Source: Saccoglossus kowalevskii (taxonomy: Eukaryota; Hemichordata; Enteropneusta; Harrimaniidae). Taken from it: a stretch of DNA of 64,000 bases. Under the pieces are notes generated by a model. That model worked only from the letters and a program-made list of their open reading frames with translations. It had not been told where the DNA came from and did no database searches. The stretch is from NCBI RefSeq assembly GCF_000003605.2, contig NW_003145288.1, forward strand, positions 80,896-144,895. Reading direction: 5' to 3'. Positions 12,101 to 57,267 of the stretch are shown piece after piece (positions within the stretch are counted from its first letter, which is position 1; each line of letters starts with the position of its first letter). The translations under genes were made by a program, and so were the position numbers.

Positions 12101-14087
12101 CCTGGTAAGTCGATCAGGTCACTAACTTTATATTGGTAATCGTCTAAATACGTCGAATATAGTGTTGTAAAATTAATAATGCACGTCGTACGGCGTCGTG
12201 TACGATGGACGAGTTCTGAATCAATACATCATTTGTTTACACGGGTGTCGCGTGTAATGTATTTGTTTATGAAACTCAAAAATAAGTTCCGGATGAAAAT
12301 AAAATCTTGATATTTACAGACTACCCGCCACCACCTGATTACACGTACATCAAAATTATAGTGGCCGTGGTAATCGTGGGAACACCGGGAACGACATTAC
12401 TTGTACTTTGCATACTACGTACAAGAAATATACACATGAGAAAGAATTTTAGAAAAAGGGAAAGTTACAGGTGAGTTCAAAGTTTACGAGGTTTGTTACA
12501 TGAATCGCACTCAGCAGGCTGTGCTTGCACTGAGATGGCTCAACGATAGAGGCAGATCAATCGAAATGATAGCATACGAGCAATGAACGATTCGCGAGTT
12601 TCATTGTGATGATCCGTTTTTACCGGTGGTAATATTCTACAGTATTAAAACAGTACCGCTTCTCGCAATTCAACGCTTTACCTCCGTTATTAATCGCGAA
12701 TAACATATCAATAATGTATACATGCAGCGACTCCCTGGCGAATAATCTTGTTAATCCTGTCATTAAGTCAAATAAGCGCTTTGTAGCTAGAGGGCGCGAT
12801 TTGCGACAATGGTTTCTGTGTTTGAAATACATCGTATTTTTCAAGGGACTCAAATCTCTCCCTAGTTACCGTTCCCACTACACAAATATTTGAATTAGCC
12901 AGAACATATTCGCCAGTTCATCTATAAATTTGCGAGCCTGCTCAAGAATTAGGTCACCTAGGCTTTCCACAACTGCAATATGTTTATTTTGTTTTGTCTA
13001 ACTCTGGTTGTCATTTTGAGTTGAACATTGGCGGAAATGCTAACATTCACAATTTAACAATTAATTCAGTGACCCTAAAATGTTTTCTGTGAATTTAATT
13101 AACAAATCGAAACAATTTAAGTAATTGCTTTGTAAGCAGCCTATTGACCGTGTCCACCCTTAATTTATTCTTAGTGTAATGTACATGGTAATTGACATGG
13201 TTCAGCAAGCAGCCATACAAAATATTATAATTACACAAGCCGATTAATAAAATTCTCTGCTACTTGACTTTTCATGAGTGACAGAATGAGATTTAATTAT
13301 TGATGATAACTCAGTTATAAAATATGTTGTATCACTAACAACTTATATATAATATATCCGAGTTATTTCATATTATTTGTAAATATTCAGTTAAATAGGG
13401 AATATATGATTTATGTCGCTGTAAAAAATTACTAAGCACCATATGCGTTCCAGATATGTGTTCATTATTTTGTTAGATTTTGTCGGTCTGTCCCTTAGTA
13501 TGAAATAAATGAGTCGGGCTTAAAGTGTTGTAATACCATCACTCTCTCTCTTTCTCTCTCTCTCTCTTGACACAGGATGGCGTCTTTCACCTACCAGTCT
13601 TCGCTAAGCATGCGACGTTACTCCAATTCACCACCATCTTCGGACGACCATAAAAGCGAAAAACCATTGAAAGGACATAGTTTCAAGGTAATGAGTTAAT
13701 GCTACACGTTTCTGTGTTGTCCTGCACTTTTCGCAAATGATGCTTGTGTTTCCATGGTTACAAGGATCAGGTGACCAACTTACGATGCAGAGAAACAAAC
13801 AGAACCTCAACCAAAATCAGCGTTTGATAAGCTTATACCATGCATTGATTCGGTTATGTTGGAAAAAGGTTTAGAATAATGCATCTCATCCTAAAACCAC
13901 GATTAATACATAATGTTTACAGTGCACATGCCTTCGACATACAAACCGCATTTAGTCGACGTAAAACCGCATTTGGTCGAGTGGTGGCGCTATTGATTAT
14001 TAATAATTAGTATTGATTCTTTTTTTTTTCCAGTTCCACAATAACCGTTTGTCGGCCAATAGTAACAAAAAGAGATATGACATATGA
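8777..14087 (+). CDS. Gene A: ApeC-like single-pass membrane protein (six exons, 5' exon missing)
   Basis: Join of 8777-9106, 10597-10938, 12006-12104, 12320-12470, 13576-13687 and 14034-14087. All borders are AG/GT, the intron phases are 1,1,1,1,2,0, and the joined frame is open for 362 residues to a TGA at 14085-14087. Order: Asn/Ser/Thr-rich N-terminus (about 1-65), ApeC-like region (about 65-224), stalk (225-257), transmembrane helix (about 270-292), cytoplasmic tail (to 362). ApeC is a cysteine-containing ectodomain of invertebrate apextrin-like proteins; known members bind microbial surface sugars or lie in membrane and matrix proteins. The first exon shown is entered in phase 1, so a signal-peptide exon must lie upstream; I searched 1-8776 and found no convincing one. 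No clear polyadenylation signal was seen; ATTAAA at about 14338 is possible. Function is inferred from the domain only. Confidence 0.7.
9683..9834. mobile_element. Fold-back MITE of about 150 bp in gene A intron
   Basis: Two arms of about 65 bases are inverted copies: TTACGAGGACACCTCAAAGT and ACTTTGAGGTATCCTCGTAA are the middles of the outer arms, and TCGACC/GGTCGA close the inner stem around a loop of about 13 bases. The whole can fold into one long hairpin. It lies in the intron between 9106 and 10597. No ORF. Confidence 0.75.
10597..10938 (+). CDS. Gene A ApeC-like core exon
   Basis: Phase 1 to 1, 114 residues, acceptor TTTATTTCCAG and donor AAAG|GTAAGA. It carries the most diagnostic ApeC-like pattern: YYCCQATGD, then KPIQLPTEKPFLLF, then CQQVKDMSV followed by E-x-I-E-W, and near the end NRTQFYCYY. 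These correspond to the paired cysteines, the PI-LP-PF-L strand, the C-Q-x-V-x-x-M-x-V motif and the terminal YCYY of the family. The acidic W-D-D-E-D type stretches usual in ApeC are poorly kept, so it is a divergent member. One N-glycosylation site lies at NST and one at NRT. If the following intron is retained the frame stays open to 11129. Confidence 0.75.
12006..12104 (+). CDS. Gene A membrane-proximal stalk exon
   Basis: Phase 1 to 1, 33 residues, acceptor GTTTCAG and donor CCTG|GTAAGT (perfect consensus). The peptide is hydrophilic (Ser, Asp, Lys) with one NST sequon and ends in VPPG. It has no cysteine and no domain I recognise. It sits between the ApeC-like region and the transmembrane exon and reads as a flexible spacer. 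Gene B has no visible counterpart. Confidence 0.55.
12320..12470 (+). CDS. Gene A transmembrane exon
   Basis: Phase 1 to 2, acceptor ATTTACAG and donor ACAG|GTGAGT. It starts with a proline-rich DYPPPPDY, then the helix IIVAVVIVGTPGTTLLVLCI, then the basic stop-transfer run LRTRNIHMRKNFRKRESYR. The positive charges after the helix give a type I orientation, with the N-terminus outside. The exon is clearly homologous to 56671-56842: both share D-[YF]-T-x-I-K-I before the helix, GTP in its centre, T-L-L-V and I-L-R at its end. A Gly-Thr-Pro in the middle of a single-pass helix is unusual and suggests a kink or helix packing. Confidence 0.82.
13542..13567 (+). repeat. (TC)n microsatellite serving as polypyrimidine tract
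   Basis: An almost pure CT run ends 8 bases before the exon at 13576 and forms its polypyrimidine tract. Confidence 0.85.
13576..13687 (+). CDS. Gene A cytoplasmic tail exon
   Basis: Phase 2 to 0, acceptor CTTGACACAG preceded by a (TC)n polypyrimidine run, donor CAAG|GTAATG. It encodes a Ser/Arg/Lys-rich tail including SLSMRRYSNSPPSSDDHKSE. The SPPSSDD stretch is the sort of site used by acidophilic or proline-directed kinases, but no ITAM, ITIM, TIR or death-domain motif is seen. Phase and place match 57117-57267 of gene B; the sequences are alike only in being serine-rich. Confidence 0.65.
14034..14087 (+). CDS. Gene A terminal exon and stop
   Basis: An acceptor with a strong pyrimidine tract (a TTTTTTTTTCCAG run) opens a phase-0 exon that reads FHNNRLSANSNKKRYDI and stops at TGA 14085-14087. 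The phase matches the preceding donor exactly. The peptide is basic and ends the cytoplasmic tail. An alternative is that the transcript skips to a later exon, but none was recognised. Confidence 0.6.
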   Translation, partial: FHNNRLSANSNKKRYDI

Positions 14088-15749
14088 GCGGATTATATAT
14101 TGAAAAAGAGCAAACAAACACTGGACGCAGTGCGTTCACTGGAGAATTATGTGACTTTTGTATTACATGTTGCTGAGCTGCAATGAAACAATGTTGGGAA
14201 AAACAAATTTCGTCCTACCTTGTCTGGGTTGGATAAACTTATGATGTAATTTGCCTATTCACTGCTCACATTTTTCTGTGCTACTGTCGAGCTTGGATTT
14301 TTCATTTGCGGGGAAGAACCCAGAAAAAATATTACAGATTAAAACGGGTGAAATGTGTTGCTGCCTGGCGGAACACGACTAATGCCAGACGGTGTTTTTT
14401 ACACATGTATATTTATGAGCTGAATTTATGCAATCATTCCAACTCCTGATTGGTGGATATACTTGTTTATTCACGACATGACCTACTATTAAAATTTGAG
14501 AGACGTATCTAGCTGTATGTCATGACTTGCAGTTCCCAGCTAGTCTCCCAGTCTCGAAAAATACGGTAATCTCGTATTACGGTGTCGCCAAACATGTGAC
14601 CTTTCATTTACGGGTGTTGTGTTCTCACATTACGCTGCAAATATCCCAAGCGTGGAAAACAGACACGCTGCTTCCTCCTAGGTTCACGTGTAACCATGAG
14701 CGAGGCTGTCGCAATGTAGTGCGTTGAATGTTTCAGTTGCTTTCGTGATTAAGTCACGTGACAGTAATAATGCTAATATATTAAGAGAAACTAGAAAGGA
14801 TCAATGATTTATATATAGATATATATTTTAAAATTCAACCGTTTTGTCCAAACTTTGACATTATTCGTTATTATATAAAGGGGCCAAGAGAGCTGAGTGT
14901 ACCGTCTGTTTGCGGAACTAATGTTCGCGGTTGTCCTTACGTTAAGTAACACTGTACTCATAAGCACACAATTAAATACAAATCGTGTATTTTTAAACTA
15001 TAGATTTGACATGTTGTCAATTAACTGTTTATTGTATCTGAATAATGTGCATTAAGACGTTCCCCTTTTTCTATGTTCACAACTACAGTTCTAATCCACT
15101 GTATTTTAATAATTCCCGTTGTATATATTGCTTGCAGTCTGTTTACCAAAATGACGATTTTTGTACTTTTTGTGCTACACTGGTGATTATGTTCACAGAA
15201 CCGCAAACAAGTCACAAAAAGATGAAATATGTTTTTTCGAATCTTACAGTCGGGGATCTCCGAGCTAGACGATCCCCGTCCGGTAATTGCCCGACCGGCA
15301 CACGTGGCTGCTGTGTCCGACACAGTTGTTTCATTTGTTTTTGCTCACTGATAGAAGTGACTTACGTCATTGCGTGTAGTTATGACGTCACATTCAGCGA
15401 AACATCTTGTAACTGACGCATAAAGGCGAGATCATTGTTAAATTGCCACGTGATCATTTGAGCAAACAGTCACGGTGTTGGGCGCTGGTGACGATATTAC
15501 TGTCTACTAACAAAATGGTACAATGACATCAAATTGACCAACAAAGAAGACGTGGCAAGTACTGATCGCAATAGGGTACACACAATAATTTTGAAAGGTA
15601 AAGACACAGTGTCTGAATTCATATCATTAATTTATATTGACTATGGTTCAATAACATTCATACATTATATATGTATGAACACATGGACCTGTTTTGATAT
15701 GCACAAATGTAATGGGTATCCCCGCATTCTGGGCAGCAAGTGATATTTG
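14088..15749. other. Noncoding stretch after gene A
   Basis: Contains the presumed 3' untranslated region of gene A. An ORF of 123 codons at 15045-15416 has many cysteines but no recognisable domain and no convincing splice frame. A short GC-rich inverted repeat (GGGGATC / GATCCCC) lies near 15251. Confidence 0.45.
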
Positions 15750-16053
15750 TTATAAAGCGCGGCAGTCGTCGCGCTGCGCATGTGCGACATTTGTGTTGAA
15801 AAACATTGATTTTCCCACAATCCAATGTACTCTTCTATTGGAAATCACAAGTATGAGGTTTCACCTTGGCGCGACTTGCACTAATTAACGCCTTCCAACC
15901 TTCCAACCACCTAAAAAATACCTAATCATTAAAGCTTCGTAACCTCTCAGTTTGTACTCATTGATCTGCGCAACTGTCAAAGTCGCCATCTTTGTTTATA
16001 TGAGACCCATATATCTCGCGCATGCGTGGTGCAACGACTACTGGCCTTTAAAC
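15750..16053 (+). mobile_element. MITE family 2, copy 1 (about 300 bp)
   Basis: Homologous over its whole length to the reverse complement of 31772-32066. Shared blocks include ACATTTGTGTTGA, CATTGATTTTCC, ACAATCCAATG, CGCCATCTTTGTT or its variant, and ATCTCGCGCATGCGTGG. The ends are imperfect inverted repeats built on GCGCATG(C/T)GCGA with a TTTAAA or TATAAA edge. Noncoding. Confidence 0.75.
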
Positions 16054-17686
16054 TTGCATAAAATCAACAACTTAGCCGTGTACAATTGTATCGACAGAAC
16101 ACTCTACATATGGTTTCACACTGCAATGTCTAGATGACATTCCGCATAAATATGTGCGATAAGTTTGTAGCCTCTAGCGGCGAATCAATTCTGTGACGTA
16201 AATGGTTGCCAAGATGGCCGCTCATACTACCGATACGTGTTTGTCCGTCGATACAAAATAATTACAACACAACCAATCAGATTTGTCTGTTCGAACGATA
16301 TTGATTACGTACATGTACACTACGTCACGGATCCCTTTGTCGCTTGCGGGCGCTTTCTATTGGAAAGGTGTATTATTTCTGTAAAAGATTATCAATAGAC
16401 CTCTAGTCAGTTTTTTTCAGCACTGCAATATTGAATAGCGAACACACTCCGCTATAGTCTCAGGGCAGAAGTTATGACGTAAGTATAAAGAAAGACGTCG
16501 TCATTTCTTGTGGGTTGCGCCCTCTAGCCCCTTGTTGCTGATACTATAGGTGAAAAATCCACAAAGTGTAATGGTCCATTATTTAAAATACAGTGTTAGA
16601 GGGGTGAAATATTCTTAATAACGAATCACAACCAGCTGTGAACGAGCCTGATTTCACCCGTCTTACGTAGGAGACGCTGCATATTGGAAGGAGAAAATGA
16701 GAACCCTGTTTTCGGCACGTCATAACGGCAAATTAATCAAAGCCAGGAGCCTACAGGAAGACATCTTCTAAACATGTTGTAAATAACTGTCATTTCAGTT
16801 GACGTTTTGTAAACTTTATATTCATTGTAACATACTCTACCTTTTTTAAATCATTGTAACAATACATATACATTTATTGACTTCAATAAATTTAAATGTA
16901 AAAACCAATAATTGAAATGTTTATTACAGTCAATGCATCCTCCTTGCAATCTCCATGATTACCTCTATATTCGGCGCCAGGAAAAAAGAGGCTTGGGGGA
17001 GTATATTATGAAGAGTAATCAGGATATAATATGACGAAAACAGAACTAGAAAACAAAATGTATGTAAACATAAACAATAAATTATTATCATTACTTCATT
17101 GATGGTTCCATTATACCCCATAAAGTATGATCTAACAGAACATTCCAAAGAGAGAGAAAGAGAGAGAGAGAAATTTAAATTGTTCTACATTGTATTTACA
17201 AAATTGACACCAGCACTACCTGCTCGTTTAAACTAAATAAAATCCGCTGTTAGCATTATTATCCGTCACGTTTGAAACTGAATGTACATAACAATTTAAT
17301 TATTTGAAAATATCCGGGAAAAAACAACACATTTTACGTTCTAAAACATAAAATTCAGCTAGGTATGAATTTGCAGTGTAATGCATGTTCCCTTTAATTT
17401 TGAAAGGCTGGGAAAATTACACAAAAATGGTACTCGTCTTCTATATTCATATTGCTACAATAGATGCGTAGTCTATCGTGTCTAGGAACGTTACAGTGCC
17501 TACCGGGGTTAGTTATGTATTGCCACACATAGCCTGCACAGTGCTACCTTGAATACCATACTGCCAGTCTCAATATCATATTCTAAATTCAAGTTTAATT
17601 TAACGTTCGTTTTGGTTGAGCTTCACAATTTGTATTCAACTCGCATTGGCATATATTGTTGAGAAATCGACGTCTCCACAAGGTTA
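16054..17686. other. Noncoding stretch
   Basis: AT-rich with short accidental ORFs; an (AG)n microsatellite lies at 17147-17173. Nothing else supported. Confidence 0.5.
17147..17173. repeat. (AG)n microsatellite
   Basis: Imperfect AG/AAAG run. Confidence 0.85.
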
Positions 17687-17851
17687 TTTAAAGCGGGGGA
17701 GTCGTCACCTGCGCACGCGTCAGATGACCATAGCATATTGTTTATAAACAAGCGCCTACCCATGAGCCGTTGCGTTTTTAGCGTGTGTTGATATCGTGTG
17801 TTGTTATCTCAATTCCCGCGCGTGCGCAGATGAAGACCCCCGCGCTTTAAA
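17687..17851 (+). mobile_element. MITE family 1, copy 2
   Basis: Starts TTTAAAGCGGGGGAGTCGTC and ends with the inverted counterpart CGCGCTTTAAA; inner arms CACCTGCGCACGCG and CGCGTGCGCAG. The middle carries GTTTATAAACAAGCG. Noncoding, 165 bp. Confidence 0.85.
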
Positions 17852-18366
17852 TAGGGATATAAATGCTATATCGTCGCTTGGACCTTGGTTGATCTAGACT
17901 TCACCAACCGTATACGTAGACAAAAGCCTTTTTTTTTTAAATTCCAAACACATTTTGTTGTTTTCTGCAAGCGCCAACTGAAATTCATTTACACTGAGAA
18001 GCATAGACATCCGCATTTATTTCTAGTATACGGATTAAATACTTCTAATTACAAATCTTTATGACGTAATTGTGCGCTGCCTTAGTTCACCTCTAGCAGC
18101 GAAGTTGGATGTTATGGCAGGTCAATTTGGTACATATCCATATTACCCAAACTTCACTGATATTTGACAATAACTTTTTAATTACAAAATAAAAGATTTG
18201 TGTACCAGATCAGTTGAATGATTTTGCGCTCTGTAAAACTTCCCGTACTTGTCAATATAACCCTCAATTCAATGTAGCGTGTGACTACTGGCAGAACACA
18301 ACCCTTATAAACCATTATTCTGAAGCATGAAATCTTCCTTCTTTTCTAAATACAACAATATTTCCC

Positions 18367-18534
18367 TTTAAAGCAGGGGTAGTCGTCACTTGCGCATGCG
18401 TCAGATGGCCATAGCGTGTCATTGTTTACAAACAAACGTCAACTCATGAGCCTTTGCGTTTTTAGCGTGTGTTGTTATCATCGTTTGGGACTCAATTCCC
18501 GTGCGTGCGCAGGTGACAACCCTCCCGCTTTAAA
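18367..18534 (+). mobile_element. MITE family 1, copy 3
   Basis: TTTAAAGC at the left and GCTTTAAA at the right bound inverted arms (GTCACTTGCGCATGCG / CGTGCGCAGGTGAC). The middle has GTTTACAAACAAACG. Same orientation as the copies at 17687 and 18685. 168 bp. Confidence 0.87.
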
Positions 18535-18684
18535 CTAATTTTAGAAAACTTGTATAATAACAGTTGATGGTGTACACGGTCAAAGGTCATATGCACAATA
18601 AATCAATAACCAATCAATAACATGTAACGTTTAATTAGAGTGGCGATGGTGAGCAGGTTATCAAGCCACTCTAATATCCTAGTA

Positions 18685-18846
18685 TTTAAAGCGAGGGAGT
18701 CGTCACCTGCGCATGCGTCAGACGGCCATAGCGTGCCATTGTTTACAAACAAGCGTCTACCCATGGGCCTTTTCGTTTATGGCGTGGGTATCGTCGCTTG
18801 GGACTCAATTCCCTGGCGTGCGCAGGTGACGACCTTTCCGCTTAAA
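18685..18846 (+). mobile_element. MITE family 1, copy 4
   Basis: TTTAAAGCGAGGGAGTCGTC at the left, GGTGACGACC and CCGCTTAAA at the right, 162 bp. One base is missing in the right TTTAAA edge compared with sister copies. The ORF crossing it is accidental. Confidence 0.87.
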
Positions 18847-21072
18847 AATTAATGTAAACACTTGGAGTAAAGATACCCTTCTGTTAGCGTCATTCTTGCT
18901 TCATCTTTTTATGCAAGGGGAATATTGTAGCCTTTGTCCAAATTATGCGGATTGTAGCTTTTTAGTACGTTCCATGTTCTGCAGACAACAAAATTGACAT
19001 TACATTAATCTAATTATTAACTTAGTTATGGTTGAGATTTGAATAGAATTGTTCTGATAACTCATCGAAAGCACTTCTTTCAAATAAGCTAACAAAGCTT
19101 CCACAATGTCGATCCGCCCATTAATATCTGCGTGTATGTTGCGTGATTTGATCGCTGTGCCAGTATTGTAACATGTCACGTGGTTGATCAGATAAATAAT
19201 CCTTGTAATGTACATACAAGTGGCCGATGCTCGGACTCTGGTCTACTATCAATGATACAGTCATTATTTAAATCAAAATTATCAGAATTGGTTAGTAATA
19301 ACCCACTACACGTGGTCTTCTGACACGCGGGCTTCTAAAGTATCGACGGGGTCAGTGCCATCAGCTAGGAAAAAGGATTCACTCTCATTACCTATACAAA
19401 TGTAGGTTACTATCAGTTTGCGCATTGAAATCACCACATATAATACATTTACTGAGTTGATATTTACTCTTAATGTCTACAAGTTCGTTTTCTATCAAAT
19501 CAAAAATATGTTTTCATAGTAAAACTACGGTTCTTCGGGAGAGATGATGAATTACGCACAGACTAAAGCTGCAATTGTAATTTTGTTCATTGTATTTATT
19601 TTAACCAACATCACACCACGAATACTTAATATAAATTAATATATGAGTTCACCTTAAAATACTGAAGAACACTGCCATACATAAGTACTCATGCGGTATT
19701 CTCATTGTTTTCTATTTGAGATAAATGATATCACAGTAATACGGCAAAAGAGAAAGTACACATCTCATAACATGGTCGATCACACCCATAATCAATAATG
19801 GAACAGCCTTTAATATTACTGACATATGGCATGTGTGTACCAACTCTTCTTGGAGCGTAACTGTTCTCTGTAAATGAAAACGAGACATACACTCATTGCG
19901 TTGTAATCTAATAATCCCCATTATCTACTGCCTATAGCTATTATTTCCTTAAAGTTTGTGCACGTTTCTGCTGGAAGCTTCAAATTACTGAGTTTTTTAA
20001 AGACATCGCCGTAATACTGATGATAGCTTTTATTTTCCGGAAATTCATAAAATACATGTATCGAGACGTTATTAAATTACAATCGAGACTGATGTTAGTA
20101 GAAAGATTGGTAAGTCGCTCGGGAGTTTGAAAGTTGAAATCACGTGACTAAAAGCATATATAAATATACTATCAAGATGTATATGTGCTGTCCATACCGA
20201 CGGGGGCTGCTCTAAGTCCCTGGTTGGCGGGCAGGTCAACAGATCTAGATAGACACCAGAAAATTGGGTAGCCCGCTGGTTCCCAGGTTGGGCGTGGGTC
20301 AACAACACCACTCCTTTGAAAAAAACTTAGTTATGGAAACCACGACGAGTATAACTTATACCACGGACCGTGGAGTGTAAATAATTGCCAGTGATCCCAG
20401 TATGACCTCACTTGATGAAAGCCTGCTGCAGAAAATCCGGTGTGCGATAAATTGTTTACCCGGTCCAAAACAAAAATACGTATCGGGGCACAGAATATCT
20501 ATGTACGAACCAAGTGCACAATGATAGATCATATACACCATTCCCTGGCCATGGGCATAAAGAGTCTTGCATCCATTATGTTGCCCTTATAATCTCAAAA
20601 AGAGAATTCAACACCATGTTAGAGTGGGAATGGTTCAAATCCAACCACTGCAAGATCACCATCGAACAAAATACGAAACAGTTATTGAGGTAAAAAAAAT
20701 GATTGATAGTACGATCAGCTGCAGAAAATAAACATGACTTTCTCATGAGTAATTAGATATAAAAGCAAAGATTGGAGACAACAAACCCAACAGTAACATT
20801 GCTATGGGGAATGAAGGTTCGTGATGTTAACTATGATATCAAGAATATTTATGTTGAAACAGCACTAAAAGAAGAAGAAATGAAACAGTAAAAAGGCAAA
20901 ATTATAAATACACAGTCGCATCAGCTCCACGAATCCTATAAGATCAAGCATTAAAAAGTGAAGAGGAGTGCCAGACGTGATAAAATATATCCTTTGTTGA
21001 GGTTTTGGCAAATACGTTACCGTAAGAGATAAGGCTTTAACCAGAATTTCAGCTAAGTATGTTTTAAGTAAC
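18847..21072. other. Noncoding stretch
   Basis: No supported gene. The tRNA-like string GGTTCAAATCC near 20633 has no flanking cloverleaf. From about 20560 the base composition turns like that of the neighbouring pseudogene, and this stretch may be the decayed end of the same repeat. Confidence 0.45.
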
Positions 21073-24000
21073 CTAATTTATGTAAAAAACTGTGCTGATT
21101 TCATAAAAAGCACTCATATTGACCACAATCAAGACAAAATTGCAATATAGAAAATTGAAAAAAAAAAGTTGTTTGCATATTAGGATATCTTCTGGTTCAA
21201 TGATCTGAGAAAGCATAGAAGGCATCTGATTTCCAGTAAACCAGACAGGTAGGAAAACGCCATTTCCATCTTTCCATCTATGATCTGTGGGTTTGATGTT
21301 CTCCAGTGGATTCTCTATATGTGCATGCTTCCAAAGATATGCCACATAGTTACACCGTGCCAATTTCTGAACCAGAACATCTTTGCAGGGTGGAAGCATG
21401 CCGGCATCTATTCCCTTTATCTTCTGCAATGGACTTTCTTGATTGGTTGGTCTGTATTTCTGTAAGAAGATTTTCAGTCTGGCCTCATTGACGGATGTTA
21501 ATGCCCCTTGACCATAGAGTGAACATACATACTGCTCTACAAGATTTTCATCATCAGCAAAAGTGATGTTTTAGTCTGTATGCTTAGTCCTTCAAGATGA
21601 AGCGGATTCTTCACAGCTTTCTTCAATGGATTTACTTTTGCCTTCCCGAAGAAGAAGAATGATGTGTAGTCACATCCTGTAACCGGACAATGATATGCAA
21701 ACTACTGGTCCGATGTGCACGGACAACCACATTCTGTCTTGTATTGCTCTAGACAGCATTCTAATATGGTACTCCGGGTGGGTATCAGCTTCCACATGTG
21801 AGCATATGTACTCAGGTAGTTCGATTTAATCAACACTTCCCATTGGAGTGACTGTATACTGAAGGCACTGCACCTTGTGTGCAACAACAATCGACTTTTT
21901 CTTTATGATAGGTACATATTTCTCGTCCTTCTATTCCTCTATGAACAAAATGGTGAGTGCAGTTTTAACATTTGGTGATTCCAATGCATATATCTGAGGT
22001 CTTTGGGGCATAACTGATCTGCCCCAGTGATGTTGAATGATCCATCATTTGCTCCTCTTGTGTGTTGCTCAGCATTCTTTATGCTTTTGACATAACTGTT
22101 GTATACAAAGTGAATTGCACTTGCTTGTACACTACATAAATTCTTCAGTACCAGCTCTGCTAGCTTTCCAAAACTGAGAGGCAGTTCAGATGGTAGTGAC
22201 TGGATTATAAACATAGCATCGTAGAGAACTGCGTCAACTGGTGTTGGTTGTGCATGTGCAATCATATCTTCGAGATAATTGGAGAGCTTATATTTTTGTG
22301 TCGTCTTTACTGTGCCATAAATACTGGCTAATGGTAGAGGAACTGGTGTAAATGGAAAAGGAAACACCATTTCAAGCTCAATCTTTTTGGTACACGCAGA
22401 CTAATCTGCCCAGCAAATTTCTTGTTGTCTTTAGCTCAATGACATTTTCATCTTCACATTGTATTTTACTCTTTTTGGCAGCACTGGCAAAGTTTCTCAC
22501 CTTTTTTCTTTGTGGTCGTCTTTCAAACCTAGCAAGATCCGTCAGGCATTCCTGGAGAAACTTGTCTTTCCACTTCTTCCCCAAAACAAACATACTTAAC
22601 ATATCAGCTTTTACTTTATCTGGCATTTCTTTACTATCTGCCAAACAATACAAATTGATGTTTCTGATCAAAGAGCTGGCAAACGGATTCATAGTTGTCT
22701 CAATCATGTTTGAAAAATTTCCAATATCTTTTTGAAATTTACTAACTTCGGAATTTCTTGTTTCATGACCGAGATTAACATGTTTCTTTATTGCTGGTTT
22801 TTCAACGAGAGACCCAACTATAGAACTTCTTGCTGATCGTAATCGTCCAGCGTCCAGCTGCTCCTTGATGGAAAGCAGTGATTCCAGTTTGTCTTGATGC
22901 TGCATCGGCATTGATTGTGCTGTCTAGTGCTTGCTTCACTGGTTGTCTTGCAAATAAATTGGTTGACAGCCTTACAGATAGACCACCTCTTTCAAGTTGT
23001 TGTCTAATACCAGGATGGGTGGTATCCATGTTCAAAAGTGTCAGATAGTACAAAACACATGTAGCGTGCACAATTATGGCGACTTGCAGCAAAGAAAATG
23101 TCAATCATTTTTCCAAGCATTCAGATGAAAAGATCCACATCATTTGTTCGTACAGCCCTACTGAACAACATGTAGATATTAATCATGTCAATAAAATTTC
23201 TCCAAAACTGGGCATTAACACCATGTTTACCAGTCCTATCTTTAGAGCTTCAACCAACTGCCCATAATTATCATTTGCTTTTTCAAGGTGCAAGAACAAA
23301 TCTAGATGTTTGCTCTGCATAGCAGTTGCGAGGAGTGCATGCACTGTTCTTGTCTGATTATAATGTTTTCCACATTGAAATGCATTTAGAGATCCTTTTG
23401 TGAGGGCACCACTTTCCATTAATATGTGAGCTGCACCAGACCCATCAATGATGTATCCCATTGCCGACATATACCGGAACATGATATGGAATGCACCAAA
23501 ACAGAGAAATACATTGTTAAACTTAGGTCTCATAGTGTCCTGCAATTGGCAAGTTGGCTTGGCTATTGCTAGATCATAGGTTGTTGCAGTAAGGGTAACA
23601 TTCCTTTTCATAGTTTAATTCACAACATCATGTGTGTAGGGGGGGGGCTCCGATGATTGCAAATAACCTATTTTCTAAACAGAAAGACCATCATTAGTTA
23701 TTGTGGAGTTCCAGCCGGCCCACACTGGTACTTGTTGGTTTGTTTTACAAGATATTGTCTATGCAACATTTCTGGCAACACACGCATTGTAATTTATAGG
23801 CTTGTCTAATGTTTGTATACCAAAATTGAAATGTGATATCTTAAGCTTTTTTCTAACTGGTTCAAGCTCAGTATTTGGTATTTCGAGACTTCGTTTTGTT
23901 TTGTTTCTTCATAGCAGTAGGAGGAGGTGATACTGGTGATGATGCTGCTGATGATGATGAGTTTATGATGGAGGCTGTCATGGTTGCCATTGGTGTAGTT

Positions 24001-24540
24001 TGTGATGGTGACAATATAACATGAACTTCGTTCTGGATGCAGATACCCTGTGTGTCATGATACATTGATTCATCATAGTTGTCCCATGATGCTATTGTAC
24101 TTAATCCTTTACACGCTTTTAGGCCATCAGGAAGAATACGATTTGTCTCAATAATTTGAGCTGCAATATCAGTCTCGTATTCTTCTACATTATGATATCC
24201 TATACAGTGGCCAAGATGATTAACAATTTCTTGTATCTTTCTGGAACCCGTGATACTTTTTAAACCCATGCCACGTTGTGTGTGTTTAGCTGGCTTCACT
24301 GTTCCATTAGTTGCTTTAAAAATATCATCTTCAGCTGATGATTCAACATATCGCTCCACTCTCTGACTGGCCTCATCTTTTGAGCCAGTGTACATAATCC
24401 TATAAAACTCTAGTAGTTCATGAGGTATATTTGTACACTGGCCAGTATATATTGCTTCAATTTCATTTGGGTTTGAGAGTTTGTTGATTTTTTTCTCTGA
24501 GGAACAAAGCTACATTCTTTATTTCATTGTCCATTGCATC
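21073..24540 (-). pseudogene. Decayed copy of a dispersed invertebrate gene family (GCDTTS-type protein)
   Basis: Read on the minus strand from ATG at about 24536, the frame is recoverable in pieces that follow one another in the order seen in a large uncharacterised family repeated in many invertebrate genomes: GHCIGY and WDNYDE (24395-23868), VPVWAGWNS (about 23720), FGAFHIMFRY and GSGAAHIL (23611-23183), RGGLSVRLS and INADAASR (23104-22802), a Lys-rich piece (22911-22378), LYDAMFIIQSLPSE (22370-21939), VTGCDYTSFFF (about 21690), then LPPCKDVLVQKLARCNY (21429-21185). Stops and frameshifts separate the pieces, so no single protein can be made. I know the family by pattern, not by a characterised function; the GCD-T-S piece recalls PIN/FEN-like nuclease folds, which is a guess. 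Its 5' end abuts the 38-bp minisatellite. Confidence 0.72.
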
Positions 24541-24549
24541 TCTGGTCAA

Positions 24550-27220: not shown

Positions 27221-27625
27221 TATCAAATGTAGATGACAATCTACCATATCAAATGTTGTCATCGGCCATATCAAATGTTGTTATCTACTATACAAAATGT
27301 TCTCATTAAATAACAAATGTTGTCATCTACCATATCAAATGTTGTTATCTACTATATAAAATGTTCTCATTAAATAACAAATGTTGTCATCTACCATATC
27401 AAATGTTTGTATCTACTATATCAAATGTTCTCATCAAATAACAACTGTTGTCATCTACTTCATCAAATGTTGTCATGTATAACATCACATGATGTCATTT
27501 ACCATATCAAATGTTGCCATGTATAACATTACATGATGTCATCTACCATATCAAATGTTGTCATGTATAACATCACATGATGTCATCTACCATATTATCT
27601 ATTGTCATCTACCATATTGTCAGCA
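27221..27625. repeat. 22-bp satellite, left block
   Basis: Imperfect units of TATCAAATGTTGTCATCTAC plus CA. Some units are replaced by variants with GTATAACATCACATGATGTC. It follows the 38-bp minisatellite directly and precedes the retroelement. Confidence 0.92.
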
Positions 27626-27675
27626 TCCTTTATTCTAAGTGTTTGTCATATTACCTCAAACCCTGCAAATAGCAG

Positions 27676-28493
27676 TTGCATGGAATCATGGGAAGAAACG
27701 GTGTGCATTGCCGTGTGCTAACTGTGGAAGCAGATGGTCAAAATAAAGGTGTAGAAGAGTTGGCTCAGTCAATTGTTAGTTCTAAGGGTCCAAGGCTACC
27801 ATTGTCTGATCAGACAGGGACGAACTGGATGCGTTTAATGTTCGAAAGATTTGCTGCTACCCAAAAATGGCCGCATGATAGTTGGGTGATGTATCTTAGC
27901 GCATTATTGACAGGCAAAGCTTTGTATATATTGTCTGCTTTGTCTGCAACAGAGTCCATTGATTACAATGTTGTAAAGGCAGCTTTGTTGAAGCGTTATG
28001 GCATGAATGAAGAAGGTCTTTTTGAACGACTGGTAGAGCTGTCTGAAGTTGATAGGAGTTTTGAAGGACTAAGGACTTAGTGATGAGAGAACAATTGATG
28101 AGTACTTTTGGTAATGAGTTGTCCATTTTCATAGATGGAAGGTCGCCTAAGTCAGTTAAAGAAATTGCTGACTTAGCTGATAAGTTTAGAGATGCACGCA
28201 AACAGACAGGTGGTAAAAATCTGAAATCTCGCCAGTTACAAAGTGGTAGTCAGAATCAGAGAGGTCAGAAAGGAAAAATACAGAGTCGATTTGGCCAGTC
28301 TAAGTCAAAGTCAGCCTGTTATATTTGTGGTGATCCAAGTCACTCTGCTGCCAGTTGTCCTAAGCGTTATAAAATTTCTAAGCCCCAGGTTACGTCAGCT
28401 GCTATGTTGGCATGTGATCGGAATAGAAATAATGATTCACAGAAAGTCAGTGCTAAATGTGTAGTTCATGAAGTCATGAATGAGTGGTGTTGA
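27676..28493 (+). pseudogene. Retroelement gag, frameshifted
   Basis: Two overlapping frames (27676-28080 and 28080-28493) are joined by a frameshift at about 28075. The first has the capsid-like FERFAATQKWPHDSWVMYL. The second begins with a SCAN-like helix set (VMREQLMSTFGNELSIFI, then SVKEIADLADKFRDAR) and ends in a CCHC zinc knuckle CYICGDPSHSAASC with spacing C-x2-C-x4-H-x4-C. Gag would form the particle and package RNA. A basic Gln/Arg/Lys-rich linker lies before the knuckle. The frame break prevents a full product. Confidence 0.78.
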
Positions 28494-28584
28494 AATGTGA
28501 TCATGAGCTGCCAATTATTAGTGTTGCCAGTGTTGCACCAGCTAATAGTATTGTGGTATGCCTGTTTTTCAAGAATTTATTGGC

Positions 28585-28870
28585 AGTACTGAGGTAGAGG
28601 TCCTTCGCGATAATAGATGTAGTTCAGTTGTAGTTCGGTTGTAGTTGGTAGAGGGTAGTCAATTGACTATGGAAAGTCGTACCTGTGTGATGATGGATGG
28701 TACATGTCGGAAAGCCTCAGTAGCTAGACTAACTTAATAATAAGGGTAATATCACGATTTGTTGCCTGCCCAAGGGATGGTGGTCATGACCATAATATTG
28801 ATGATACCAGAGCCGAGAGCCTTCAGTTAGTGCGAGTGTTTGTGAACCCTCCATGGATTCTAATGTATAG
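28585..28870 (+). pseudogene. Retroelement aspartic protease relic
   Basis: A stretch reading VLRDNRCSSVVV and later RTCVMMDGT and CCLPKG lies where protease is expected, between gag and integrase. The usual D-[ST]-G active-site triplet is replaced by D-N-R, and several stops follow. Identification rests on position and the short pattern. Confidence 0.5.
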
Positions 28871-28949
28871 GGAGTTTCAGTCATGTTGATAGAGGATGAA
28901 TGTGTTCCCAATTAGTTGTACCATTGTGTTACCGTGATCACGTACTAGT

Positions 28950-29182
28950 ACTTGCTCATGAGTCAGTTATGGCAGGTCATCAGGGTGCTAAGAAGGCTAG
29001 AGATAGCAACTCGGTTGTATTGGCCTGGGATGCAGGATGATGTTATTGGGTATTGTAGGTTATGTGATATATGTAAGAAGACCGCTCCTAAGGGTCGTGC
29101 TAGCAAAGTACCATTAGGCGATATGCTCTTGATTGAAATTCCATTTCAAATGATAGCTATAGATCTGAGTTGCTCAAGCTGA
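28950..29182 (+). pseudogene. Retroelement integrase zinc-binding piece
   Basis: GHQGAKKA in one frame and then LYWPGMQDDVIGYCRLCDIC in another, with one frameshift between, correspond to the H-H-C-C domain of gypsy-type integrases. It ends FQMIAIDLS, the start of the catalytic core, after which the core is missing and the sequence passes into the integrase C-terminus. Confidence 0.75.
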
Positions 29183-29420: not shown

Positions 29421-29639
29421 GACAAACTGAATGACAAGAAATAAAAGTGGTTACAGGTGTGATGAACTGTGCATGCACCGCTGTTGAATATGATACTGCT
29501 GACAGTGACACAATACTGTGCGATAGTGGTGAATTTGAGTCTGTGCCAATTCAGTGAAAAGAAACAATTGTCGATTGTCATGTTGGCCATGAGTTGAATG
29601 TTGACCAGCGTAGAGAGATTGATTGAGTTATGAGAGAAT

Positions 29640-30535: not shown

Positions 30536-30804
30536 ACATCATGTTAAATGTGTGTTTCTGCTGCGATACAAGTGATACAGGCTTCAATCATCATTCTGTG
30601 AGACTTGTATGAACTGCTCTGCGATCACCTGCTTTCACCGGTGCCCTCCAGAATACCTCTGCAAACAAGACTCCTGTATATCTTCGTTGTTGTGTTCCAT
30701 AAGCCATTGACTGTCATCCAATTCAGCCTCCTGGAACTGTGAGTTATTACCAATGCATACTTCCCTAGGCAACCCCTATTTTAGTGAATTTATTCAATAT
30801 ATAA

Positions 30805-31771
30805 TATATCAAATGTCATCTACCATATCAAATAATGTCATCTATCATATCAAATGTTGTCATCTACCATATCAAATGTTGTCATCTACAATATCAAATG
30901 TTTTCATCTACTTTATCAAATGTTGCCATTTACTATATCAAATGACATCTACTATATCAAATGTTGTCGTCCACTATAGCCAATGTTGTCATCTACCATA
31001 TCAAATATTTTCATCTACTATATCAAATGCTTTCATCTACTATATCAAATGTTTTCATCTACCATATCAAATGTTTTCATCTACCATATCAAATGCTGTT
31101 ATCTACCATATTAAGTGATGTCATCTACCATATCAAATGTTTTCATCTACTATATCAAATGCTGTCATCTACCGTATCAAATGTTTTCATCCATTTTATC
31201 AAATTTTTTCATCTACTATATCAAATGCTGTCATCTACCATATCAAATGTTTTCATCTACCATATCAAATGTTTTCATCTACCATATCAAATGTTTTCAT
31301 CTACTACATCAAATGCTGTCATCTACCATATCAAATGTTTTCATCTACTATATCAAATGCTGTCATCTACTATATCAAACTTTGTCATCTACCATATCAA
31401 ATGTTTTCATCTACTATATCAAATGCTGTCATCTACCTTATCAAACTTTATCATCTACTATATCAAATGTTTTCATCTACTATATCAAATGCTGTCATCT
31501 ACTATATCAAACTTTGTCATCTACTATATCAAATGTTTTCATCTATTATATCAAATGCTGTCATCTACTATATCAAATGCTGTCATCTAATATATCAAAT
31601 GTTGTCGTCATCTATATGAAATGTTATCTACTATATCAAAAGTTGTCATCTATTATGTAAAATGTTGTTATCTACAGTATGAAATATTGGGTATAAAGTG
31701 TTAAGTTATATTATGGTATCTAACGTTTTCATCTTTTATATCAACAATAGCGTATCGAATGTCATCTTCAG
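30805..31771. repeat. 22-bp satellite, right block
   Basis: About 40 units of TATCAAATGTTTTCATCTAC plus CA, the same monomer as at 27221-27625. No frame of the + strand unit holds a stop, so long overlapping ORFs of 22-residue repeats arise; they are by-products. It decays towards 31771, where a MITE begins. Confidence 0.94.
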
Positions 31772-36468: not shown

Positions 36469-36568
36469 ATGTTTGTTAACAACGTGTTTGAATTTGTGCC
36501 TTCCACGTCCATGTGGAAGACCCCATTAACCTTGTTGCTGTTTCACGTATGCTGGTGCGTACTCACAG
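36469..36568 (+). CDS. Gene B first exon, signal peptide
   Basis: ATG at 36469, with a second in-frame ATG at 36511. From the second Met the peptide MWKTPLTLLLFHVCWCVLTG has a basic start, a hydrophobic core and a small-residue end, as in a classical signal peptide; the first Met adds 14 residues. The exon ends in phase 1 at ACAG|GTAAGC, a perfect donor, and phase 1 is what both 55799 and gene A's 8777 require. No ORF-extending acceptor is needed upstream. No TATA box is obvious within 100 bases, but the preceding 700 bases are richer in CpG than their surroundings. Confidence 0.52.
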
Positions 36569-51500: not shown

Positions 51501-54500
51501 TGTGTGTACGTTGACCCAAAGCACCGACCTGTAATCGCCTGATAACCACGTTCTACGTGGTATCAATCAGTATCGAACATGTTAACTCGTTATTAACCGA
51601 ATACTAAAGACACAATATTATACATTTTGAGTCATTAACTAATGAAAGCGTCTTCATCTTATACACTACTTAGTGTCTATGACGAGATTGCCATATTTGT
51701 AATATCAGTTAAGTAATATCTTCAAATCATGTGAAATGTGTAAATCATTTTCGTGTGTAACAGTCTTGTAGGATGGCTTACGGGCCGCATCTCAGGATAT
51801 TAGACAAATTAATTTCCGCTGATGGATAACTGTAATCTTCCACAAGTACGGTATCCCTGATCATACCCAAAGCATTGATTGGTATGCACTATCGATAATA
51901 GACATCGATAGTAATAATACAATTAGAGTTTCTGTTGCTACAGCAATAAAGGTATTGAATTTGATGGTAAATGTTTCCTTAGTTGTTGTTTTTGTTTTTG
52001 TTTTGGCCCTTAGCAACAGATCAATGAACCATGTGTCTATGGGGAAAAAAAGATCGACATTGTTTGAAGGGATTTTGAAATAGTTGGGTAAATTCTAGTT
52101 TGCAGGCGGGTAACTTTGATTGGGCGAATGTTGTGACTGTCGCCAATAAATGATTATACATAGATGTAATTTACTCAAGATATTCAGATATCGGTCGTTT
52201 ACAGACACGTTGCTATATAATAATAATGTCGCTGCCATGAACCTGCTTCGGATTATTGGGAAGACATGTGTGTGACAAAAACAAATAATTTCAATATTCG
52301 TCCTTTATTTCCCCCCCACATAGTCCGCTATGCAAGGGTATCCACTACATATGTCGAATTTTAAAACCACGTTGTTTTTATCTGCAAAAGTCTCAAATCT
52401 ATTTGGTCGAATGACCAAACCTCAAAGGTCTAAGTACTAATATCAGGCTTGTCATAGACATCTTAACGTTAGGAACATAATTTGTTCGACTTTTAACCAG
52501 CTGTAAATGGTATGCTATAATATTACACGACGGGATATGTGCGTATGGTAATCATTACAACACAATCGAAGTCATAGTAAANNNNNNNNNNNNNNNNNNN
52601 NNNNNNNNNNNNNNNNNNNNNNNNNNNNNNNNNNNNNNNNNNNNNNNNNNNNNNNNNNNNNNNNNNNNNNNNNNNNNNNNNNNNNNNNNNNNNNNNNNNN
52701 NNNNNNNNNNNNNNNNNNNNNNNNNNNNNNNNNNNNNNNNNNNNNNNNNNNNNNNNNNNNNNNNNNNNNNNNNNNNNNNNNNNNNNNNNNNNNNNNNNNN
52801 NNNNNNNNNNNNNNNNNNNNNNNNNNNNNNNNNNNNNNNNNNNNNNNNNNNNNNNNNNNNNNNNNNNNNNNNNNNNNNNNNNNNNNNNNNNNNNNNNNNN
52901 NNNNNNNNNNNNNNNNNNNNNNNNNNNNNNNNNNNNNNNNNNNNNNNNNNNNNNNNNNNNNNNNNNNNNNNNNNNNNNNNNNNNNNNNNNNNNNNNNNNN
53001 NNNNNNNNNNNNNNNNNNNNNNNNNNNNNNNNNNNNNNNNNNNNNNNNNNNNNNNNNNNNNNNNNNNNNNNNNNNNNNNNNNNNNNNNNNNNNNNNNNNN
53101 NNNNNNNNNNNNNNNNNNNNNNNNNNNNNNNNNNNNNNNNNNNNNNNNNNNNNNNNNNNNNNNNNNNNNNNNNNNNNNNNNNNNNNNNNNNNNNNNNNNN
53201 NNNNNNNNNNNNNNNNNNNNNNNNNNNNNNNNNNNNNNNNNNNNNNNNNNNNNNNNNNNNNNNNNCACGTATGTTTATATCTCACGCCCGCGTGCCGTAT
53301 TCATGTCTGTTTATATTTTACGCCAGCGTAACGTATTCACGTTTGTTCATATCTTAGGCCAGCGTAACGTATTCACGTTTGTTTGTGTCTAACGCCCGCG
53401 TAACTTATTCATGTCTGTTTATATCTTACGCCAGCGTAACGTATTCACGTTTGTTCATATCTGACGCCAGCGTAACGTATTCACGTTTGTTCATATCTGA
53501 CGCCAGCGTAACGTATTCACGTTTGTTTTTATCTTACGCCGGCGTAACGTATTCACGTATGTGTATATCTCACGCAGGCGTAACGTATTCACGTCTGTTT
53601 GCGTCTTGCGCCGGCGTAACGTATTCACGTATGTTTATATCTCACGCCGGCGTAACGTATTCACGCATGTTTATATCTCACGCCGGCGTAACGTATTCAC
53701 GTCTGTTTGCGTCTTGCGCCGGCGTAACGTATTCACGTATGTTTACACCTTACGTCGGCGTAACGTATGCACGTCTATTTATATCTTACGCCGGCGTGAC
53801 GTGTTCACGTCTGTTTATATCTTACGCCGGCGTAACGTATTCATGTCTGTTTATATCTTACGCCGGCGTAACGTATTCACATAAGTTTATATCTTACACC
53901 GGCGTAACGTATTCACGTCTGTTTATATATTACGCCGGCGTAACGTATTCACGCCTGTTTGTATCTTACGCCGGCGTAACGTATTCACGTATGTTTGTGT
54001 CTTACGCCGGCGTAACGTATTCACGTCTGTTTGTGTCTTACGCCGGCGTAACGTATTCACGTCTGTTTGTGTCTTACGCCGGCGTAACGTATTAATGTAT
54101 GTTTATACCTTACACCGGCGTAACGTATTCACGTCTGTTTGTGTCTTACGTCGGCGTAACGCATTCACGTCTGTTTGTGTCTTACGCCGGCGTAACGTAT
54201 TCACGTATGTTTATATCCTACACAGGCATATGTGAACACGTTATCTGTTGCACGGATTAACTCAGATCAGTATCACATGCCCGATGTATACCATACATTT
54301 GTAACTTTCTTCTTTTTTTAGCTTCATTATTTTTACGTTTTTGTGCTGTAAATTATGTACTAGTTTCGCATGCCGTTCTTGTGAAACTTCATGTTAAAAA
54401 TCCCCGAGCTTAACGTTACCGGCTTGTGTACACTTCATTACACCCGGAGTTAAGAATCCTTTTAAATCCAGATTCACATCTATCCTAAAATCCAATCGTT

Positions 54501-57267
54501 CGGATTTGTATTGAAGCATTTTTGTTTCCATGGCAACGAGATTCAGATCTCAACCAACCTCTTACTCAACGGTATCCGTCCTGAAAATGTCAGGATAATC
54601 TACAACATTTTAAGTTATAAATATTTAAACAGCTCCAAAATTATTATTTTTTTTTCAACCAGAAATATAATAGATTGGTAATAGTTTCCAAGAGAAACAT
54701 ATTGCTGAACATTTCCATGACAACCCATCCTAAAAATTATTGAGTTTTCCTACTAACATACAAACAACAAACCAACGCTATCGAAAGCATAACCCTCCTT
54801 AACATAGGGAAATATAGACGACGTTTTCGCTGAAATGTAATTTCCACTGGTAGGGATTCATCTAACGTAATTACTCTTTCAAAACTTACATTGCTATAGG
54901 GTATATTTTCATCCCAGATGAGTACATTTAACATTATTTAAATGCATCAGTGATGTCCGTATTGAAACAATGACCGTACATTTACGAAATATATCATGGC
55001 AACAAGTAATAGGGAATAAACAAACGTTTGCAAAGTGTGCGTCTCTCCTTTAGTCTTTGCAAAATCACCCTTCTTTAGGACGGCACTCAATCAGTAGTGA
55101 TTTACCCTTACCTCGCCATCTGCATACTAATGTGATGCCGCCGTCTTGTCTTGGGTCTTACTTGCAAGCCACGATCAATAGTAATTTGCCAGTTCGTCGC
55201 CTTAATATTAAACTAATTTGGTCCCATGAAGAATATATATATATATATATACACGTGATAGAATAAGACATAGGTAAGGTTGACTAAATGCAGCACATTT
55301 GTCAACGTCTTCCCATCAACACCGGGTTGGTCGTATTGGCATACATATATCCACTTAGTGAATTGAAGTATGCAACTAGATTGTGACCTGTATCTTTTTT
55401 GTCACGAACTAAAACCGCGTGAACAGTGGTAAATATCAAAGCAATATTGCAAAGTAACTTATTGAGTATGCAAATAATTTCTCCTTGTTCGCATCACTGA
55501 TACACATTATATGTCCATTATATACCGTGTACGGCTTTATTTAAGTCAAGTTTGAACTTCGGTATGCAAATTAGTAGTACGTTCAGAATTCTGCGATGCG
55601 CGACAATATTTTCCACTTAACTGTAATTTCGGTTCGCAACTATTAATCAGCGGGTAAATTATATGTATGATTCCGGTTAATTATCTATCATACCATATTT
55701 TAATTAATTTCCCAGTGACATTTCTATTTACAAATTATTTCCACATTTTATGGATTAAAATAAATGTTCATTATACTGAATTTATTATCTTTATACAGGT
55801 CGCGTTGTTTCAAACGAACCAACGGCAGCAACAACAGACCAACTGATTTTCTCGTCACCGTCAGCATCAGCACTCAATCACCAATTATCTACAGTAACAG
55901 ACAGCGTCGCATTGTCTTCATCAATCGCGACAGTACAACGGGACTTTCCGGTTAGTGCGACGATCATGTTGACAGCAATTACGACGACTGTTGAACAAAC
56001 AACTCAGTCGGACTTTCAATTCAATCCTACGTCATCGGAAGTAACAGTCCAATCAACACATGACGCAATTCGTACAACGACTGGAAACGGTAGGACGGAT
56101 ACAACTGCTATTACAGAAGCGTCGACAGCGGAAGGTAGTTCTAATTTCCTATCTCGTAATTCAGGGATGCAATTCAGTTGGGGGGTTTATCATGCACAGC
56201 ATATCCTGCTGTAATTTGTAAAACTGCAAAACACAATATCGTAAATGTGTTTTGAAATACTTTATGGGATAACAATGAAAAGTCGCGTGCATTAAAACTA
56301 TTAAAGTCTTCGTTTATGCTTCCCCACAATAATTCTTGACGCGTAAATATGTGAACTAGCTATAGGTCAATAGAGGACTAAATGTGATAAGGGATGAATT
56401 CAACAATATAAAAAAGGGGGTCCTGAATTATCCGTACATTCATAGAAATGCAGAACAACATAATCTTTGAAATATACAGTACCAGTTGGACCATTTAACT
56501 TCCGGTTTCATTGTGCGTCCTGCGAGATTTGTTTAATTATTTGTTTAAATATTTAGCAATACTTAGTTAGCGTCTTCTTAGTACTTCATTGTAAATACTG
56601 TTTGTTTTCTTTCCGAGTTTTCATTACATATAATTACTATGCTGTAACATATTTTGTATTCTGAATATAGCTCATCCATGGGACGGATATCCTTTACCGG
56701 ATTTCACCAATATTAAAATTGTCGTCGGGCTTGCTATTGGAGGAACGCCGTGCGTGACATTGCTTGTGTTCGCCATTCTTCGCTGTCGAGCTGTGTATAT
56801 TTCAAAACACAAATACAACAGCATAAATAAAGGAAACTTGGGGTAAGCACTGCTGTTTAATTTTAAATTATTTATATTTATCAGTACGATAGGGCAAAAC
56901 AGGCCTCCAATCGACATTTTTTTCACATGTTTGTTATTTCTTTTTGTCAGTTTGAGTATCTTTTGTTTTTCTTTGTCAGATGGGGTATTTTGATGTAATG
57001 GATTCATCTGGGAATGATGACACAAACAAAGTTGTATTTCTATTATTGGTGAAGTAGACAATAACTTGCAGTAATTTGTATTTCATAATAGCGTTATCAC
57101 TGGATTTATTTTCTAGTTTGTCAACTGTCTCTCTTGCTGCATCCGCCTCTTCTTATGAAACACGTGGTAATGTGAATCCTGCTATGTCCAGTAACACACT
57201 CTCACTTCCATCGTCAACGTCACATCCCTCTTCGTCTATGAGCGACGTGAATGCTAGTACAGAACAG
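36469..57267 (+). CDS. Gene B: mucin-like single-pass membrane protein, paralogue of gene A (partial at 3')
   Basis: Join of 36469-36568, 55799-56134, 56671-56842 and 57117-57267; phases 1,1,2,0, open for 253 codons. Order: signal peptide (33 residues), Ser/Thr-rich ectodomain without cysteine (about 34-145), transmembrane exon (about 146-202), serine-rich tail. The last two exons match gene A in order, phase and, for the transmembrane part, sequence, so the genes are duplicates in the same orientation. No ApeC-like exon was seen. It may have been lost, or it may lie in the 19-kb first intron, which contains the gap 52582-53265. The link between the first exon and the rest rests on phase and strand only. 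After 57267 the message may read through to TAA at 57280-57282 or splice on. Confidence 0.6.
36569..45218. other. Left part of gene B intron 1
   Basis: AT-rich, no supported exon. GCGCATGCG-type strings occur at about 42040. A short palindromic pair CTTATAAGAT / ATCTTATAAG lies at about 41160-41190. ORFs at 39526 and 41334 show no domain and no matching splice frame. Confidence 0.4.
45219..45265 (+). mobile_element. MITE family 1, copy 5 (truncated)
   Basis: CTTAAAGCGGGGGAGTCGTG, then CGCGCATGCGTCAGATAGCC match the left arm of the family and then stop; the right arm is absent. Confidence 0.75.
45266..52581. other. Right part of gene B intron 1 before the gap
   Basis: AT-rich noncoding DNA with a (GT)n run at 50546-50570. 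An ORF near 48742-48936 ends in RGYQDTEV, faintly like an ApeC motif, but nothing around it supports that. Confidence 0.4.
50546..50570. repeat. (GT)n microsatellite
   Basis: Uninterrupted TG dinucleotides. Confidence 0.9.
52582..53265. other. Assembly gap (684 N)
   Basis: Run of N. The right edge is already inside the 36-bp satellite while the left edge is not, so the gap probably hides more satellite and the array's start. Exons of gene B could also be lost in it. Confidence 0.98.
53266..54230. repeat. 36-bp CpG-rich satellite
   Basis: About 27 units of GTAACGTATTCACGTCTGTT plus TATATCTTACGCCGGC. Each good unit contains the perfect 14-base palindrome TTACGCCGGCGTAA. The unit length is a multiple of three and lacks stops in two + strand frames, giving an ORF with the 12-residue repeat YSRLFVSYAGVT. 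It lies within gene B intron 1 and is unlikely to be coding. Confidence 0.95.
54231..55798. other. End of gene B intron 1
   Basis: AT-rich noncoding DNA with a (TA)n run at 55232-55252. No exon supported. Confidence 0.45.
55232..55252. repeat. (TA)n microsatellite
   Basis: TA dinucleotide run. Confidence 0.85.
55799..56134 (+). CDS. Gene B mucin-like ectodomain exon
   Basis: Phase 1 to 1, 112 residues, acceptor TTTATACAG and donor GAAG|GTAGTT. Roughly 40 percent of residues are Ser or Thr (for example TDSVALSSSIATVQ, TAITTTVEQTTQ, TDTTAITEASTAEG). There is no cysteine and no N-glycosylation sequon, so an extended O-glycosylated stalk is likely. If the intron is retained, the frame runs on for about 26 residues and stops at 56214 before the transmembrane exon, which would give a secreted form. 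Confidence 0.66.
56671..56842 (+). CDS. Gene B transmembrane exon
   Basis: Phase 1 to 2, acceptor TGAATATAG and donor TGGG|GTAAGC. It begins AHPWDGYPLPDFTNIK, then the helix IVVGLAIGGTPCVTLLVFAI, then LRCRAVYISKHKYNSINKG. Compared with 12320-12470, the Pro-rich lead, D-F-T-x-I-K-I, the central GTP, T-L-L-V and I-L-R are kept, as are both intron phases. A cysteine follows GTP in the helix, and another lies just inside the membrane. The basic flank after the helix again gives a type I topology. Confidence 0.83.
57117..57267 (+). CDS. Gene B cytoplasmic tail exon
   Basis: Phase 2 to 0, acceptor TTATTTTCTAG, donor ACAG|GTGAGG. It encodes about 50 residues rich in Ser, Thr and Ala, including NTLSLPSSTSHPSSSMSDVN. 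It takes the position of gene A's 13576-13687 with the same phases, but the sequence has drifted and the basic character is weaker. Read-through adds VRLF and a stop at 57280-57282. Confidence 0.6.

Follow-up and report, generated by a model that had tools for sequence, protein, structure and literature searches.

The window, by which we mean the whole analyzed stretch of 64,000 nucleotides from Saccoglossus kowalevskii, carries two predicted genes on its forward strand, referred to here as gene A and gene B. Each has an exon that encodes a transmembrane helix, located at positions 12320 to 12470 in gene A (IIVAVVIVGTPGTTLLVLCILR) and at positions 56671 to 56842 in gene B (IVVGLAIGGTPCVTLLVFAILR). 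Both exons are bordered by AG and GT, are entered in phase 1 and left in phase 2, and are followed by a tail exon of phase 2-0. The two copies of this module lie 44 kb apart on one strand. An earlier, sequence-only reading of the window had listed these coordinates and intron phases together with the motifs of both exons, and all are as it described them. Both gene models are predictions, in which the signal-peptide exons and the last exon of gene A were placed by splice-site scores or by eye.

In gene A, the exons of an ApeC domain lie upstream of the helix. The start of the domain is encoded by a phase 1-1 exon at positions 8239 to 8298 (DWPAGIYALPKPKRGCP), which has AG/GT borders and an alternative acceptor 3 bases further on (8242) that leaves the phase unchanged. 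This exon aligns with positions 1 to 16 of the Pfam ApeC model (16.8 bits, E = 0.0066 on 21 amino acids) and, taken alone, falls below the cut-off. The first half of the domain is carried by a phase 1-1 exon at 8777 to 9106, likewise with AG/GT borders, whose match to model positions 21 to 84 (21.9 bits) is also below the cut-off of 26.5 when considered by itself. The second half is carried by another phase 1-1 exon, at 10597 to 10938, which was identified by Pfam and by a genome-wide ApeC search and matches positions 125 to 208 (65.9 bits, E = 6.1e-18). When spliced as predicted, gene A scores 108.4 bits against PF16977 (E = 5.6e-31; curated cut-off, 26.5). Its predicted ectodomain is a complete ApeC domain, with all eight conserved cysteines present in an alignment with the four other ApeC genes that we found, and it bears eight N-glycosylation sequons. 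A search by sequence against solved structures returned no match at E values up to 1. The sequence-only reading had known of no named family with this helix. This holds for the helix itself, which has no significant match in Pfam, but not for gene A, whose ectodomain belongs to the ApeC family.

Downstream of the ApeC exons, a phase 1-1 exon at 12006 to 12104, supported by AG/GT borders and by the exon scan, encodes a juxtamembrane linker of 33 residues. The transmembrane exon is followed by a tail exon at 13576 to 13687 (phase 2-0), which is rich in serine and basic residues and was assigned from its borders and frame, with a low donor score of 2.9. The last coding exon, at 14034 to 14087, contains FHNNRLSANSNKKRYDI and a stop codon; its frame is open up to the stop, and it was chosen by eye with a single acceptor considered. 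Under the predicted splicing, the linker, helix, and tail exons all continue in frame after ApeC, and gene A has no secreted short-form ending. The protein ends with KKRYDI, and its C-terminal YDI presumably fits a class II PDZ ligand motif. There is no Pfam match on the forward strand of positions 1 to 8372 of the window, and hence no match to MACPF ahead of ApeC. The predicted gene A protein most likely begins with a signal peptide, followed in turn by the ApeC domain, the product of the 33-residue linker exon, the helix, and a tail roughly 70 residues long.

The part of gene B nearest its helix has a different character. A phase 1-1 exon at 55799 to 56134, found by the exon scan and by its frame, encodes a stalk in which 40 of 111 residues are serine or threonine. 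In the exon scan, this exon scores 64.5, and the other listed phase 1-1 candidates between 36.5 and 56.7 kb score 5.1 or less. When its own codons are removed from the table, in a scan of which every fourth row was listed, it still reaches 27.8. The acceptor of the transmembrane exon scores weakly (-1.3), and the exon was recognized by its homology to gene A. It is followed by a Ser-rich tail exon at 57117 to 57267 (phase 2-0), assigned from its frame and borders. A search within the window for the last exon of gene B gave several weak candidates, none of them convincing. No ApeC or other domain was detected by Pfam at E values up to 1 upstream of the stalk on the forward strand of 31.7 to 56 kb, and the joined gene B piece has no Pfam match. 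The same read-through method, run as a control, does detect ApeC in gene A. An ApeC domain in gene B was rejected on the basis of these scans, with one run of Ns in the long intron that was unread and could hide an exon. The likeness of the gene B helix exon to Epiglycanin_C is at chance level (E = 0.16).

Candidate signal-peptide exons with phase-1 donors precede both genes. For gene B, the candidate at 36511 to 36568 (MWKTPLTLLLFHVCWCVLT) is the only one between 32 and 55.8 kb, and a longer version of it could begin at 36469. For gene A, the candidate (MDIDSVLCVIVFSFLTVVS) lies 4.9 kb before the first base of the window, with a second, weaker candidate 367 bases further on. A scan of both strands of the readable contig, with thresholds that we set ourselves, yielded four candidate places, and the two highest donor scores among them belong to those in front of A and B on the right strand. 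Between the gene A candidate and ApeC, where the stretch of the leader intron that precedes the window was covered by the exon scan only, no phase 1-1 exon comparable to the first ApeC exon was seen among the rows listed, one in four (next best score, 5.2 versus 17.0). These candidates suggest that both proteins would carry signal peptides and would be located at the cell surface.

The transmembrane exons of A and B are real homologues. When aligned on their IKI residues, they are identical at 19 of 36 aligned residues with no gap in the helix. Their ungapped BLOSUM62 score is 103, compared with a mean of 26.4 (SD, 5.6; maximum, 57) for 1,500 shuffles, which were done by region such that composition was kept separately before, inside, and after the helix. 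A tblastn search within the window matches the gene A exon to the gene B exon with E = 5e-10 and 52.5% identity over 40 residues. The helix alone, which is identical at 13 of 22 positions, scores 58 against a maximum of 53 in 3,000 shuffles. The same codon is used at only 7 of the 19 identical residues, and a Nei-Gojobori count over the exons gives pN = 0.28 and pS = 0.80, whose ratio is rough because pS is near saturation and the codons are few (36). These two values indicate an old duplication with constraint at the level of the protein.

The tblastn and shuffle scores thus agree with the proposal of the sequence-only reading that the two exons are paralogous. That reading had also judged the transmembrane module to be more strongly conserved than the tail or the ectodomain, and this too is borne out: the likeness of the two tails and of the two juxtamembrane stalks is at chance level, with 314 and 960, respectively, of 1,000 shuffles scoring as high or higher. 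No sequence shared by A and B was found outside the helix exon. Within the exon, conservation is not confined to the helix, as the PDxTxIK directly N-terminal of it is conserved at least as well.

A search of the genome (572,110,611 bases in 4,830 contigs) with the module, as the sequence-only reading had proposed, found A and B and nothing convincing elsewhere. The gene B exon matches itself and gene A (E = 6.5e-6), with no other match up to E = 10 (two candidates scored). The gene A exon matches itself, gene B (E = 1.4e-5), and a third place at E = 1.18 (three candidates scored), which was rejected as the helix of a frame resembling a 7TM receptor, recognized by eye. The genome contains stretches of Ns and scoring was limited to the candidates of a first look, so further copies are possible. 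A profile search over as much of the contig as is readable found the module only in A and B; the next match (E = 0.12) was dismissed as a frame without the motif. Likewise, an ApeC-like trace at 43.8 kb of the contig (E = 0.069) was discarded as a stop-ridden sequence without a Pfam match. In the genome search, neither gene's first tail exon gave a match other than to itself.

The genome-wide search for the ApeC family returned nine exon matches, of which one is in gene A and eight (L001 to L008) form four genes within about 80 kb on contig C2226. In each of these four genes, the domain is divided between two exons, and the split falls close to the position of one of the introns of gene A. The stop codon comes one residue past the ApeC match in every case, and tblastn and motif searches of the downstream flanks, 9 to 10 kb per gene, did not reveal the helix module. 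The genome search gave a single match to MACPF, on contig C357, which is not the contig of gene A. Because their stops directly follow ApeC and the MACPF match is on another contig, the four genes are probably secreted short forms. They also differ from gene A in their DXED motifs. The second acidic motif is kept as WDDED in all four, the third is WDxED in three and WDTQD in one, and the first is looser, whereas all three are absent from gene A (alignment judged by eye). Among the five ApeC genes found, gene A alone is predicted to be membrane anchored and to lack the acidic motifs.

Proteins of the ACP group (PF16977), which include amphioxus ACP1, ACP2, ACP3, and ACP5, oyster CgACP1, and snail BgACP1, share with gene A a complete ApeC domain with eight cysteines. 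As far as the sources describe them, the functionally studied ACPs are short secreted proteins that end with ApeC, whereas gene A runs on into a helix and a tail. Peptidoglycan binding and agglutination of bacteria are reported for the ApeC proteins that have been studied (PMC9585378; PMC8361754). The absence of the DXED motifs could mean that gene A may have lost binding of this kind. However, BgACP1, in which all three DXED motifs are mutated, is reported still to bind Lys-type peptidoglycan (PMC9585378). The loss of the motif in gene A is therefore compatible with binding, and the motif does not strictly define ApeC-containing proteins. Apextrins, which consist of a signal peptide, MACPF, and ApeC, have ApeC in common with gene A but differ in that no MACPF match is found near gene A. 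Individual lancelets differ by the gain and loss of genes, and ApeC genes belong to this set (PMC12373286). A full-text search, whose coverage does not extend to the main survey of ApeC architectures, found no paper that mentions the ApeC domain together with a transmembrane segment. Gene B resembles mucin-like type I membrane proteins in its Ser/Thr-rich stalk, single helix, and short tail, but differs in that its joined piece has no Pfam match.

We consider it probable that A and B are two tandem paralogues that have a common transmembrane and tail unit and different phase 1-1 ectodomains, and that both descend from an old duplication, after which ectodomain exons were gained, lost, or replaced. 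By the classical rule of exon shuffling, exons with the same phase at both ends can be exchanged without breaking the reading frame, and the ectodomain and helix exons of gene A, like the stalk and helix exons of gene B, are all entered in phase 1. Both products would be type I membrane proteins with the same C-terminal unit, which is entered via a phase-1 intron. A tandem duplication on one strand would have come first, and phase 1-1 ectodomain exons would then have been gained, lost, or replaced through phase-1 introns with the frame left intact. Because no likeness between A and B was found beyond the helix exon, that the whole gene was duplicated, rather than the membrane unit alone having spread, is something that we infer.

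Under this scheme of duplication and ectodomain change, gene A would display ApeC on the cell surface as a membrane-anchored receptor or adhesion protein. The domain could bind microbial cell walls or host glycans, and the C-terminal RYDI could make a PDZ-type contact. Gene B would be a mucin-like protein with a stalk that is probably O-glycosylated and an anchor akin to that of A. Given that the experimentally characterized ApeC proteins are secreted microbe binders, a membrane-anchored form with a tail would be a candidate signaling or phagocytic receptor of this class. The pair also offers a clean case of a constant membrane unit with a changed ectodomain, which lets one ask what keeps the helix constant.

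The sequence-only reading had proposed that the helix itself is under selection, perhaps for partner pairing. Selection is upheld for the protein sequence of the module by the low pN relative to pS, but the conserved positions do not cluster significantly on one face of the helix. In tests that rest on two sequences only, the moment of conserved positions gave p values of 0.26 and 0.21 (two lengths) at 100 degrees and of 0.18 and 0.12 at 102.9 degrees, and the best heptad placement (6 of 6 positions identical) gave p = 0.12. It is possible that the helix is kept for pairing with a partner. Its conservation would look the same if it reflected a shared partner, a common signal for trafficking or cleavage where the protein meets the membrane, or a structurally tight unit that changes more slowly. 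That A and B, or each of them with one common partner, pair in the membrane to form a two-chain receptor, in which one chain carries ApeC and the other is mucin-like, seems unlikely to us. The extent of helix identity, the GTP with a small residue three positions on (G or C), and the fully identical heptad face speak for such pairing. However, the clustering on a face is not significant at any of the settings (p = 0.12 to 0.26), and PDxTxIK is kept at least as well as the helix, so a packing face is not singled out by the constraint. Moreover, known adaptor pairs have a charged residue inside the helix, and this helix has none. Slightly less likely still, in our judgment, is an invertebrate receptor whose two chains, one for recognition through ApeC and one mucin-like, are encoded side by side and joined by a common helix that is kept for pairing, with GTP as a hinge, while their outer parts were swapped by phase-1 exon exchange.

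Two other explanations dispense with a functional pair of genes. One copy, most likely B, might be a decaying duplicate whose likeness to the other is residual, as could be suspected from the last exon of B not being found within the window, its ectodomain lacking a known domain, and the weak acceptor of its helix exon. The open frames, the AG/GT borders, and a pN far below pS make decay improbable. Least probable of all is a single locus in which alternative ectodomains are spliced to alternative anchors. Although the exons lie on one strand, have the same phases, and are all phase-1 compatible, gene A ends in a tail and stop of its own, B is preceded by a separate signal-exon candidate, and the 44 kb between the helix exons contain repeats and retroelement-like frames.

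The window also contains sequences other than genes A and B. No RNA was found in it by Rfam at gathering thresholds or by a tRNA scan. Adjoining open frames of 165, 153, 181, 143, and 213 amino acids on the reverse strand at 21073 to 24509 resemble a broken mobile element or a multi-exon gene and have no Pfam match at E values up to 0.1. Two frames on the forward strand at 27673 to 28493 have a sub-threshold likeness to DUF1759 and to a zinc knuckle and are probably the remnant of a retrotransposon gag. A dispersed, MITE-like repeat of about 175 bases per copy occurs in both orientations at 1 to 136, 17685 to 17860, 18366 to 18543, 18683 to 18856, and 61887 to 62049, and weak matches of its translation to the gene B exon were rejected as false. 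Finally, tandem arrays are found from 24484 on (38-base unit), at 27224 to 27661 (22-base unit), at 30759 to 31751 (22-base unit), and at 53194 to 54321 (36-base unit), and the last of these is open in several frames.
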